A stretch of DNA of 40,827 nucleotides, from contig NZ_JAAVTO010000020.1 in NCBI RefSeq assembly GCF_013185065.1, forward strand, positions 1 through 40,827, written 5' to 3'. A program made the position numbers and the translations under genes. This document shows, one piece after another, positions 1 to 9,014 of this stretch; within the stretch, counting starts at the first letter, position 1, and every line of letters begins with the position of its first letter. Source of the DNA: Adlercreutzia sp. ZJ473. GTDB taxonomy: Bacteria; Actinomycetota; Coriobacteriia; Coriobacteriales; Eggerthellaceae. The notes below the pieces were generated by a model. The model saw only the letters and a list, made by a program, of their open reading frames with translations, was not told where the DNA came from and searched no databases.

Positions 1-1643
1 CACCTTACACGAACAGGATCCTTTCCACCGACATAGCTCGAAGCATCCACCTCGATTTTTCCGCCACTGCGCACTGCGACCTTTTCTGCGTATCGCCGCG
101 CCCGCTTCGCCAGCGCCTGCTCGGGCGTCAGCGTCTCGCGTTTCGGCTTTGGAGCGCCCGTCGGACGATTTGCCCTCCGCTCGGGATGGCATGTCGGACA
201 CACACACTTACCAGCCCTGATGCGGGGGTACGTCTCCTCCCACTCATGGTTACACGCTTTACAACGTACCTTGACTGGACTCGTCGAGTTGGCGTATTGA
301 ACGATCTCTATGCTTTCGCTGCTCAACACCGCAGATAAAGACTCTACTGCTTTATCTCGACGCTTGTTCGGCTTCTCCCCAGGGTACGTCCGAACCTTTT
401 TGAGCGTGAACGTGGCACTGGGCACATCACCGCCAGCGTCCCACTCCATGCCCAACAGATACGTTGTACGCCCCTTTGCTCCGTAGTAGAGCTGCTCGGC
501 ATAGCGTTCAGGGTCGCACGTTGACGTCTTTATCTCAAGAACAACGTCATCCGTCGAGAGGTCACAAAGTGCGAGAATGCCGAGTTCGTCATCGACGACG
601 AGTTCCTGCGATATCACCGGGGAGCCATGAAATACCTCATCGCTTAAGAATCTCGCAAGCGGTATGAGCTGAGGACGCGCTTGCTCAACCATCATGTTAA
701 ACCTCTTCTCGTGCTCCTTGTCCTCCTGACGAGCCGCTGTCACCGTTCCATCGCCGTTAAAAGACATAGGCATGAAGCTCAACGAGCTGTGCATATAGCC
801 CAGCAACTCGTTCTTCGCCGAGTTTTCGGCGAGGAACTCCGAGTTGTCAGCTTTGGTCACACCCAGCATCGAATCTATCAGGTTCTCGACGATCATACCC
901 GAGAAGTTCGTAGGAAAGCGCCTGATGTCTTCCCCGGAAATCTCAAGGCTATACACCTCCTCGGCATCATATCTGATGTAGGGACGCTTGATGATGCGAG
1001 ACAGGTTGTTGAACGTAGTAAGATAGCTCACAGGCACGATGTAGCCAGGGTTGAGCACCGCTAAGCGCCACATCCCATGATTCTGCCCGTTTGGTACGAT
1101 GCGGGCGAGCAAGAACCGCCCGTCGAGCTTCTTGAACAGCTCCCACTCAAGTTTGCAATCCGACAGACCGCTGTGAACCGCCGCAACACCCGCGATGCCG
1201 AAGAAATCGCAGAGGTTGTCTTTCGTAAGGCTGCCGTCAGAGAAGCCCGTCGAGCAAATGAGATGCTTGAAATTGAAGAAGCGCATATGCTCGAACCCAA
1301 CGAGACCGTGCCTCGCAAAATAGTCTCGAATAAAACGCGGATCGAGGCTTCCGTAGTGAAGAATCGTCCTCTTGCCGAGCTCGAAGTCATCAAACAGCTC
1401 GTTTACCTCAGCCTGCGTCAGGTGCTTCTTCCACCTGAGATCGCATTTCCTAATGCCGTTGATATCGGTTGTATAGACCTCCTCGTCGAGGTCGAGCGGC
1501 AAAAGCCTGTCGTACTCATTGCCATCGTCGGGTTTGTAGATCGAGATTGAGAGAAGGTCACATTCTTTGCTCTTGAGACCGTTCGTCTCGACATCGAGCA
1601 CGACATAATTCCTCGAAGACGTATCGATAGTCGGTAAACCCAT
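1..1643 (-). CDS. DEDDh exonuclease / PD-(D/E)XK nuclease / zinc-ribbon fusion (C-terminus beyond the window)
   Basis: This minus-strand frame is open from an ATG at 1643 to the left edge (547 codons visible, no stop). Residues 1-175 carry a DEDDh exonuclease signature: D17-V-E19-T, a weakly conserved middle motif around D101, and H157-x4-D162. Residues about 340-390 read like a RecB/Cas4-type PD-(D/E)XK core: D361, then E370-I-K372, then Q384 followed by Tyr residues. Residues 461-485 hold a C-x2-C ... C-x-C-x2-C zinc-ribbon pattern with a central Trp, and residues 517-547 repeat the segment that precedes it; the last partial codon is TG-, compatible with the next Cys. The RBS (AAGGAG) overlaps the stop of the upstream gene, so the two are probably cotranscribed. 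Nuclease activity is inferred from motifs; the biological role (defence, mobile element, repair) is unknown. Its G+C content is visibly lower than that of the core genes (48% in the first 60 bases). Confidence 0.8.
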   Translation of the reverse strand, partial: MGLPTIDTSSRNYVVLDVETNGLKSKECDLLSISIYKPDDGNEYDRLLPLDLDEEVYTTDINGIRKCDLRWKKHLTQAEVNELFDDFELGKRTILHYGSLDPRFIRDYFARHGLVGFEHMRFFNFKHLICSTGFSDGSLTKDNLCDFFGIAGVAAVHSGLSDCKLEWELFKKLDGRFLLARIVPNGQNHGMWRLAVLNPGYIVPVSYLTTFNNLSRIIKRPYIRYDAEEVYSLEISGEDIRRFPTNFSGMIVENLIDSMLGVTKADNSEFLAENSAKNELLGYMHSSLSFMPMSFNGDGTVTAARQEDKEHEKRFNMMVEQARPQLIPLARFLSDEVFHGSPVISQELVVDDELGILALCDLSTDDVVLEIKTSTCDPERYAEQLYYGAKGRTTYLLGMEWDAGGDVPSATFTLKKVRTYPGEKPNKRRDKAVESLSAVLSSESIEIVQYANSTSPVKVRCKACNHEWEETYPRIRAGKCVCPTCHPERRANRPTGAPKPKRETLTPEQALAKRARRYAEKVAVRSGGKIEVDASSYVGGKDPVRVR

Positions 1644-1654
1644 ATCGCCTCTCC

Positions 1655-2254
1655 TTACGCCAGATTCGACGGAAGCACGGAGTGGAGCTTACCGTTCTCA
1701 GCTCGATATACACCAGGTGTCTGGATGCGACCGCGTGTAAGCGTCATACCGATCACATAAGACTTAGACGATGGGCTTTCGCCGATGAACGTCATGGGAT
1801 AAGCGTGCTCAAGGTTATAAACGAACGACACAATCTCTGGGATATCCTCGACCGAACAGTTAATCTCCGCGGTCGACTCGTCGAGCGCGTTGTAGATGGA
1901 GAGCGTCCAATCATCGTGCGAATAGCGCTCGATGAATTCCTTAACGCGTGTGTACCCGGCATCAGTTCCTGCGAGATTATCGCCACGCCAGATTTTGCCT
2001 CCTAGGAGAGATGTTTCGGTATAGCCTGCAATCATGTCGATCTCCGTTCCATATCGTCCTTGAAGTATTCGCCTTTTGCGCTCGCGACCAATCATGTCAT
2101 GCAACAGAGCGGACTTGGTAACACCATCCTGATCAGCCCAGCCAGAGAGCTCAATGTCCTCGGCAGTGCTCATCGTAAAAAGCACCTTTTTACGCGAAGA
2201 CTCCCTGCGTCCGTCTCGAACTATATCCGCGCGCCTGTCCGTCGATTTCGTCAC
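1655..2254 (-). CDS. Hypothetical protein with ribbon-helix-helix-like N-terminus
   Basis: A 199-residue frame starts with GTG at 2254, eight bases after an AGGAG motif; no in-frame ATG lies closer. Residues about 22-55 fit a ribbon-helix-helix (CopG/MetJ-type) fold: a short beta strand (KKVLFTMS), a helix, a turn, and a second helix (TKSALLHDMI) followed by basic residues. The remaining 140 residues are not recognised; they are mixed alpha/beta without membrane segments. It ends 11 bases before the nuclease fusion gene, whose RBS overlaps its stop codon, so the two form an operon. Three direct repeats spaced 11 bp lie just upstream, which is the kind of operator RHH proteins bind, so autoregulation is inferred. 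It could equally be an antitoxin-like or accessory partner of the nuclease. The gene itself is well supported; the function is not. Confidence 0.72.
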   Translation of the reverse strand: MTKSTDRRADIVRDGRRESSRKKVLFTMSTAEDIELSGWADQDGVTKSALLHDMIGRERKRRILQGRYGTEIDMIAGYTETSLLGGKIWRGDNLAGTDAGYTRVKEFIERYSHDDWTLSIYNALDESTAEINCSVEDIPEIVSFVYNLEHAYPMTFIGESPSSKSYVIGMTLTRGRIQTPGVYRAENGKLHSVLPSNLA

Positions 2255-2277
2255 AAAATCACTCCTATCTTTTTATG

Positions 2278-2306
2278 TATATCCTTAGTATATCCATTTT
2301 ATATCC
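2278..2306 (-). promoter_or_regulatory. Three 7-bp direct repeats with 11-bp period (putative operator)
   Basis: TATATCC on the plus strand (GGATATA on the minus strand) occurs at 2278-2284, 2289-2295 and 2300-2306, exactly 11 bp apart, so all copies face the same side of the helix. The array ends 24 bp upstream of the GTG start at 2254. A fourth copy lies inside the coding start at 2222-2228, out of phase. Ribbon-helix-helix repressors typically bind such short tandem sites cooperatively; binding by the adjacent gene product is inference. Confidence 0.6.
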
Positions 2307-2662
2307 ATTCGCATGACAAACATTAATTCCGAGCCCATATCCTTTATGACAAGGCGACTGAGTATGTTGATAGGCGTTAAGCATGGAAAGCTTGGGCTGA
2401 CTATGATATTCAGTAGGCAGGGAGGCTTTAAAGACCATACATCGGTGATTCGTTGGCTTTCGAGAGGATGATCGTAGGATAGACGATGACAGAGCCGGGG
2501 GTGTCCGCCATTGTGCGCGTACAAAGCCTCCGGCCGTCTCGTTTTCGGGTTATAGGACAAAAAGTTTTCAGAGAGCCACGACCCGTCATCAAACCGCACG
2601 TCATCGAGTTCTAGCAGGGTAACGGTGCGCTCAAGCGTGAACAACAAGAAGAGCATGATGTG
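2307..2662. other. Lower-G+C stretch without a confident gene
   Basis: No frame here is convincing. A minus-strand frame can be read to a stop at 2285, but it ends inside the repeat array and has no recognisable domain. A plus-strand frame of 52 codons (2313-2471) lacks a ribosome binding site. Either could be a decayed gene. The base composition resembles the 1-2254 island rather than the chromosome. Confidence 0.4.
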
Positions 2663-2687
2663 GAATTTGGAGTTCAACTCCAAATTC
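2663..2687. repeat. Perfect 25-bp palindrome
   Basis: GAATTTGGAGTT at 2663-2674 is followed by a single C and then its exact reverse complement at 2676-2687. As RNA it would form a 10-bp stem with a 5-base loop, followed by TTT on the plus strand. It sits where the lower-G+C patch gives way to the repeat cluster and could be a weak terminator, an operator, or a mobile-element end. Confidence 0.75.
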
Positions 2688-2716
2688 TTTCGGCTATTCC
2701 GCGAGCCGGGCGTGCC

Positions 2717-2981
2717 GATCTGGGATGAGATAAGGCCGTTACCGACAACGGCGTTTTTCCATCCACCTCCCAAGCGATCCCTGAGGCGAACCACCGACAA
2801 CGGCAGATTCCCATCCACCCCTCAGGTGATCCTGGATGAAACAAGGCCGTTATCGGCGGTTTCACGGGGAAAGTGGATGCGAAAGCGCCGTTGTCGGTGG
2901 TTTTAGGGGCTCGAACCGCCGACAACGGGCGCTTTCCATCCAGCTTCCCAAAATGGTGGATGGAAAAGGGGCGTTGTCGGT
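2717..2981. repeat. Cluster of five palindrome-forming intergenic repeats
   Basis: A unit of about 27 bp, beginning ACCGACAACGGC and ending CCATCCACC, occurs on the plus strand at 2741-2767, 2793-2819 and 2915-2943 and inverted at 2873-2898 and 2955-2981. A second element (TGGATGAAACAAGGCCGTTA and a variant) occurs at about 2720-2740 and 2831-2850. Neighbouring units in opposite orientation can pair into long hairpins. Arrangement and spacing resemble REP/BIME-type extragenic elements rather than a CRISPR array. The rest of the stretch to 3154 holds nothing else I recognise. Confidence 0.7.
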
Positions 2982-3154
2982 GCCTCGAGTGAGTGGCGGC
3001 CAAAAGCGCCACCGAGCCGTGAGGTTCCGCCTGCGCGCCTTGGCGCTGCCGAGCCGCCAGACCCGCCTGCGCGCCCTGGGCGCCGCCGGCCTGCGCAGAT
3101 GACGTTTTTTGTTTCTGGTTTATTAAAAGATCGCCACGCGGAAAGGCGCGATCA

Positions 3155-8842: not shown

Positions 8843-8866
8843 CATGCGCTCAACCGGTGTCACGCT

Positions 8867-8950
8867 AAGTCCCTACGCTGGCATTACCCAGATCAGGTTC
8901 GCGGGTCGCAGGAGCACCTGCCTCTCAGCCCTTCGATTCGGGCTCCCCGT
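8867..8950 (-). promoter_or_regulatory. TPP riboswitch aptamer
   Basis: On the minus strand the conserved elements GGGCTGAGAGG and, further on, GAACCTGATCTGGGTAATGC and CAGCGTAGGGA appear in the right order and spacing for the thi box. The aptamer starts near GGGGAGCCC (about 8950) and closes near 8867. Binding of thiamine pyrophosphate would switch off the four-gene transport operon downstream. Confidence 0.96.
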
Positions 8951-9014
8951 AGCAAGGGCCATTGTGGACGATGCGCCCCGGCCTGTCAAGAAGCCTTCGG
9001 CATGCGGGCGGAAG

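Follow-up and report, generated by a model that had tools for sequence, protein, structure and literature searches.

The window analysed here, a stretch of 40,827 nucleotides from Adlercreutzia sp. ZJ473, is one contig of a 2.6-Mb, 119-contig genome and opens on a gene that encodes two predicted nuclease domains and is truncated by the contig end (Table 1). The open reading frame encodes 547 amino acids and is still open at the edge. Judged by relatives with two ribbons, about 25-30 residues are missing past the contig end, corresponding to the rest of a second zinc ribbon, and the rest of the gene was not found on any other contig of the same assembly. In full order, the protein comprises a DEDDh exonuclease domain, a PD-(D/E)XK domain, a zinc ribbon and the start of a second ribbon copy. 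This is the two-nuclease fusion of the original prediction, made from the bare sequence, in which every residue named proved correct. The description of the locus as low in G+C also holds, with 52-55% at positions 1-3000 and 64-76% further on.

Two further elements lie in the window. A palindromic dispersed repeat of about 200-250 bp (positions 2737-2990, with units around CCGACAACGGC...CCATCCACC) occurs about 25 times in the genome, its copies being 74-92% identical; it resembles a MITE or REP-type element and has no Rfam match at gathering score. A TPP riboswitch (Rfam RF00059, E 4.3e-11; positions 8851-8959, minus strand) lies upstream of ABC-transporter-like genes and is ordinary.

Table 1. 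Features at the left end of the window (positions in the window; residue numbers refer to the two-nuclease protein).
Feature	Position	Strand	Residues, basis or remarks
Two-nuclease gene	1..1643 (ORF 3-1643)	-	ATG at 1643; 3′ end cut by contig end
Predicted DEDDh 3′-5′ exonuclease domain, aa 9-177	1113..1619	-	D17, E19, D101, H157, D162
Predicted PD-(D/E)XK nuclease domain with N-terminal beta extension, aa ~196-418	390..1058	-	E253, D361, E370, K372, Q384
First zinc-ribbon module, aa 440-488 (C461, C464, C482, C485)	180..326	-	Sequence; weak Pfam matches; PHROG match
Start of second ribbon module, aa 505-547	3..131	-	Cut before first Cys (codon TG-)
Upstream gene, 199 aa	1655..2254	-	Same strand as nuclease, 11-bp gap
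Remnant stretch common to sister genome G028 (85%)	2379..2546	+	Matches upstream region and first codons of G028 Abi_2 gene
Low-G+C accessory stretch upstream of gdhA	1..3057	.	Homology to G028 continuous again from 3058

By its fold and its D-x-E, D and H...D residues, the protein is a member of the DEDDh (DnaQ-like) superfamily, with predicted 3′-5′ activity. First, PF00929 matches the window protein above its gathering score (E 3.5e-5), and a PADLOC DEDDh model reaches E 1.7e-12 (PDLC01247 among the best matches); sequence matches in the PDB are to Cas2-DEDDh and PolC. Second, a full-length relative (L066), modelled at pLDDT 89, matches DnaQ epsilon with a Z score of 17.9 (2.5 Å, 158 residues) and TREX1 and Cap18 with Z scores of about 15. 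Third, in the 41 aligned members over which residue conservation and ribbon counts were taken, the window copy included, D17, E19, D101, H157 and D162 are invariant (41/41); the original prediction had named D17/E19 and H157/D162, and D101 is a further acidic residue. The best sequence and fold matches, CRISPR-associated, PolC- and DnaQ-type DEDDh exonucleases (PDLC01247, PDB 8fy9, 2p1j and 8h18), share the fold and the catalytic residues with the window protein, whereas the matched entries are fused to Cas2, a polymerase or a DinG helicase, or stand alone, all without PD-(D/E)XK or ribbons. The N-terminal DEDDh part of PDC-S48, a single-gene defence candidate in PADLOC, also aligns in 8 of the 41 members (best E 2e-5), but the remainder of this 411-residue model is unmatched by the window family.

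The middle domain received no name from any sequence library scanned (Pfam, NCBIfam, PADLOC and PHROGs). Because a PDB search with the full-length model was swamped by DEDDh matches, we folded residues 174-432 of the window protein alone, with 24 relatives in the alignment, obtaining a model with a pLDDT of 91.5. Its best six structural matches are three Dna2 structures, Cas4 SSO0001, RecE and a putative exonuclease from Eubacterium rectale (3l0a among them), all of them RecB-clan nucleases, with Z scores of 6.8-7.4 and rmsd of 4.2-5.5 over 126-162 residues; the seventh drops to 3.9. With Foldseek alone there was no match below E 1e-3, and acetyltransferases came first, at a probability of 0.13. 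The predicted membership of the RecB/Cas4/RecE clan, a Z score of about 7 being modest by itself, rests on the top matches of the second aligner being one clan, together with the motif E253..D361..E370-x-K372..Q384. These residues are kept in 39 (E253), 40 (D361), 38 (E370), 40 (K372) and 39 (Q384) of the 41 members, the exceptions being L101, L106 and L110, and conservation and fold matches alike agree with the RecB/Cas4-like core first proposed from the last four, to which E253 is an addition.

Fold and catalytic order (E..D..ExK..Q) are thus common to the window protein and the RecB/Cas4/Dna2/RecE clan. In contrast to Cas4 and Dna2, with their four-cysteine Fe-S cluster, the domain of the window family lacks these cysteines, and the window protein has no helicase; across 25 sequences we found one invariant cysteine (C360 in ALCDLS) and not the four-cysteine 4Fe-4S signature of Cas4, AddB and Dna2. 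TM0106-type RecB nucleases (NCBIfam TIGR03491) join a RecB-type and an RNase H-like (exonuclease-like) domain in one chain, in the order opposite to that of the window protein; TIGR03491 was not among the NCBIfam scan matches of the window protein.

The C-terminal end is built from ribbons. PHROG HNH-endonuclease ribbons match the first module (E 1.4e-7), and the second module starts 87 residues on, where V459-R460-C461 is echoed by VR and then the cut codon TG- at 548. Relatives show C..C...C..C at that place, as expected if the cut codon is a cysteine, and the second-ribbon module of L066 matches both window modules, with 78% identity to the second and 31% to the first. The ribbon C461..C464..C482..C485 and its repeat are real; the further ribbon copies that had been anticipated come to exactly one more, never exceeding two among the 41 members. 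Two ribbons, 70-91 residues apart, occur in 21 of these members, and the protein then ends at most 7 residues past the last ribbon; a single ribbon is seen in the truncated window copy and in six further members, and 13 have none. A helix-turn-helix-like end replaces the ribbons in L088, L090 and L096 (Cro-type in L090; PF13443, E 4.2e-6), next to which the one-ribbon L092 is nested in the tree. At the other end, the double-nuclease core of L100, L102, L103, L104, L106 and L107 carries an N-terminal extension of 150-320 residues, with no Pfam family match in the two that were scanned (L100 and L103). The variation of ribbons and helix-turn-helix at the C terminus and the N-terminal extensions therefore describe a constant double-nuclease core with changing ends. 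The ribbon pair has relatives elsewhere: HNH endonucleases encoded by Enterococcus phages align to that of L068, and the pair of the window family is homologous to that of phage homing-type HNH endonucleases, which carry zinc-ribbon repeats (phrog_559 and phrog_681). These proteins, however, are phage-borne HNH nucleases, whereas the window family combines DEDDh and PD-(D/E)XK.

A search of 398 Coriobacteriia genomes for the two-nuclease core gave full-length copies in five, including the window's own and a frameshifted copy in G029, a genome of the same genus; four more hold partial or shortened copies, bringing the genomes with the core or part of it to about 9 of 398. A first scan of species genomes with the window protein alone as query returned no relatives, and a pattern scan derived from the alignment, run over 84,980 species, found relatives at 52 loci in Bacillota and Actinomycetota, mainly gut members of the Clostridia, Bacilli, Erysipelotrichaceae and Coriobacteriia, plus a single locus from Bifidobacterium. 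With the window protein and L068 as queries, 50,697 phages and 72,556 plasmids yielded no relative of the nuclease core, nor did scans of viral contigs; the L068 query matched the ribbons of HNH enzymes alone among phage proteins and had no plasmid match. A DEDDh-only relative in G311 (L061/L112) sits among phage-like genes, named by eye.

As the original prediction had supposed in knowing no named family with this order, a full-length model for the protein is absent from Pfam, NCBIfam, PHROGs and PADLOC (to 2023), in which the separate domains alone match, and we found no description of a fusion of DEDDh, PD-(D/E)XK and ribbon in the open-access literature. Each domain is known; the combination, the exchangeable ends and the distribution appear undescribed as far as searched, and a name for the family may exist in CDD, DefenseFinder, PADLOC releases after 2023 or closed-access papers, which lie outside the libraries searched.

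Immediately upstream of the nuclease lies a gene that had been taken for an RHH gene and for the possible second half of a defence or mobile-element system. It has no family match, and hence no RHH identification, in Pfam, NCBIfam, PADLOC and PHROG scans. Outside the window's own genome it adjoins the nuclease in a single case (L065, 55% identical), and it is found at full length in 2 of the 398 Coriobacteriia genomes, both of which have it beside the nuclease. We rejected the two-gene system, as the gene is not a conserved partner; what stands of the earlier suggestion of defence or mobility is the mobility of the nuclease gene and the presence of defence neighbours at some loci.

No partner gene is conserved among the loci, and most have no recognised defence gene alongside. 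At about 8 loci, defence genes, either known or candidate, are found close by: Shango SngA, SngB and SngC at L077 (E 5e-22, 1e-132 and 5e-174, with SngA 123 bp downstream); Wadjet JetC/JetD 536 bp upstream at L087, where an HNH gene that matches a type IV model also follows about 40 bp downstream; a type II methylase and restriction enzyme near the gene at L104; a type IIG gene about 2.8 kb away at L058/L114; the candidates PDC-S11 at L097, PDC-S19 at L094 and PDC-S41/AbiO-like at L102; and a caspase gene near the nuclease at L073. At a threshold of 1e-10, 112 neighbours matched 166 PADLOC models, against 51 matched by 105 control proteins encoded far away in the same genomes, an excess in a small sample that is suggestive only, because models and not genes were counted and three of the neighbours were picked by hand. 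Among the first 25 of the 51 control models, most belong to one kinase family, PD-T4-6, and Cas1 and Cas2 are absent among the first 25 of the 166 models listed for neighbours.

Two other kinds of neighbour recur. In Erysipelotrichaceae, the nuclease gene overlaps an upstream DEDDh gene with an extra 145-aa N-terminal domain of no assigned family (L097:7397-8344, L099:9566-10513 and L111:3923-4870), giving tandem exonuclease genes. Large zinc-finger-array proteins, ribbon-array endonuclease-like and by eye DUF4379-like, are encoded near the nuclease at L065:4725-7301, L076:1-2199, L080:12394-13839, L082:1-1263 and L111:1487-3820.

The dN/dS ratio of 0.07-0.15 across six pairs of close copies shows a protein that is therefore under selection. 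In the tree, the window copy clusters with copies from Collinsella and Atopobiaceae (support 100/99), and the copy from its own genus, in G029, falls outside. L068, L069 and L072 share 88-94% DNA identity across the gene and a few tens of bases, with nothing of note common to their surroundings, and L065 and L066 have the gene alone in common. Read from these alignments, the gene is horizontally mobile, with homology often stopping at the gene itself. In G029 (locus L098/L013), a 2.95-kb insert with a G+C content of about 44-50% holds the gene; the insert is bordered by an mtaB-like gene on one side and by the next conserved genes on the other, and two relatives that lack it have about 230-340 bp at that place. 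The nuclease copy in the insert is frameshifted between its two nuclease domains (L013:3290-3371), whether by assembly error, decay or recoding, and is directly followed by a 234-aa gene (L013:4245-4949) with no above-chance match in Pfam, NCBIfam, PADLOC or PHROG scans. In the sister genome G028, whose gdhA is 99% identical to that of the window, an Abi_2 gene (E 8.6e-36; L141:10435-11520) occupies the site of the window's nuclease pair. The site beside gdhA thus likely behaves like an (abortive-infection) defence hotspot.

On balance, we lean towards a stand-alone, horizontally transferred nuclease that degrades DNA and protects its host, or the island that carries it, against invading DNA. 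Both active sites, DEDDh and RecB/Cas4-type PD-(D/E)XK, look intact on one chain in sequence and model. The C-terminal module would bind DNA and help to choose the target; the PD-(D/E)XK domain would make the first cut or resect one strand, as Dna2, Cas4 and RecE do; and the DEDDh domain, like DnaQ and TREX1, would remove 3′ ends. Jointly, the two domains could degrade both strands without an ATPase, the end result being destruction of the invading DNA. There are precedents for the parts. Of the DEDD diDNases found on islands of Gram-positives, 41.9% have defence genes nearby (PMC11706625), the ApsA antiplasmid system combines a helicase with PD-(D/E)XK (PMC11096173), UvrD-Cas4-like fusions have been predicted to be parts of defence (PMC5704561), and DNA ends are trimmed by Cas1-Cas2/DEDDh (PMC10284694). 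The diDNases, from genomic islands of Actinomycetes and Clostridia, resemble the window family in having a DEDD nuclease in Gram-positive islands, but that study concerns a dinuclease subfamily (NrnC homologs), and its text never uses 'fused', 'domain architecture' or 'zinc' (PMC11706625).

Against a role in defence, a chain with two nucleases would suit recombination, conjugation or a selfish element just as well. Integrative elements might use the protein for their own DNA processing or stability, or against rival elements, a reading that we hold to be unlikely while taking it seriously. In L088 and L091 a conserved block of 19 kb holds the gene together with primase- and coupling-protein-like genes (named by eye), relaxase- and ParA-like genes lie just upstream at L105, and integrase-like genes are present at L075, L081 and L083; yet the copies in G029, L095 and L106 sit between housekeeping genes with no element visible, and element-borne defence against rivals would look alike, so that this reading merges with that of defence.

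A selfish homing-type nuclease, which would cut DNA lacking the gene and be copied in during repair, with the DEDDh domain widening the break, strikes us as improbable. It would account for homology that so often stops at the gene (L068/L069/L072 and L065/L066), for a ribbon module common to phage HNH endonucleases and for the ribbon-array endonuclease-like (DUF4379-like) genes nearby at five loci. However, near-identical copies sit in unrelated flanks, and therefore no conserved target is visible; we found neither such a target nor shared flanks, a comparison that a very short target would escape. Homing enzymes, moreover, are not known to carry a DEDDh exonuclease, and the core was not found in the phages searched, in which homing genes thrive.

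We give little credence to an RNA-directed effector, an abortive-infection enzyme that would destroy tRNA or mRNA on infection. DEDDh enzymes act on RNA too, the DEDDh domain here also resembles the RNase T and ERI exoribonucleases in fold matches, and the ribbons could bind RNA; but the structures that best match the PD-(D/E)XK domain are those of DNA nucleases, and L090 swaps the ribbons for a Cro-type helix-turn-helix, a DNA-binding fold. Least credible of all is an accessory nuclease of DNA repair or recombination that plays no part in defence, for although RecB, Dna2 and DnaQ domains typically serve in repair, the gene is rare and patchy within genera, low in G+C and horizontally acquired, unlike housekeeping repair genes.

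Returning to the protective DNA-degrading nuclease, we put forward more tentatively a wider version, in which the family would be a widespread single-protein immune nuclease with two catalytic types and an exchangeable targeting module (ribbons, helix-turn-helix or other), degrading both strands of invading DNA without ATP, guide RNA or methylase. The family recurs in gut Bacillota and Actinomycetota, yet its annotation is limited to separate domains in the libraries searched, and it connects the zinc-ribbon repeats of phage homing enzymes with host-side nucleases. If its role is defence, it would be a one-gene system that needs no helicase, methylase or guide and is easily tested and transferred, and the sharp question would be what replaces self/non-self marking and spares the host genome.
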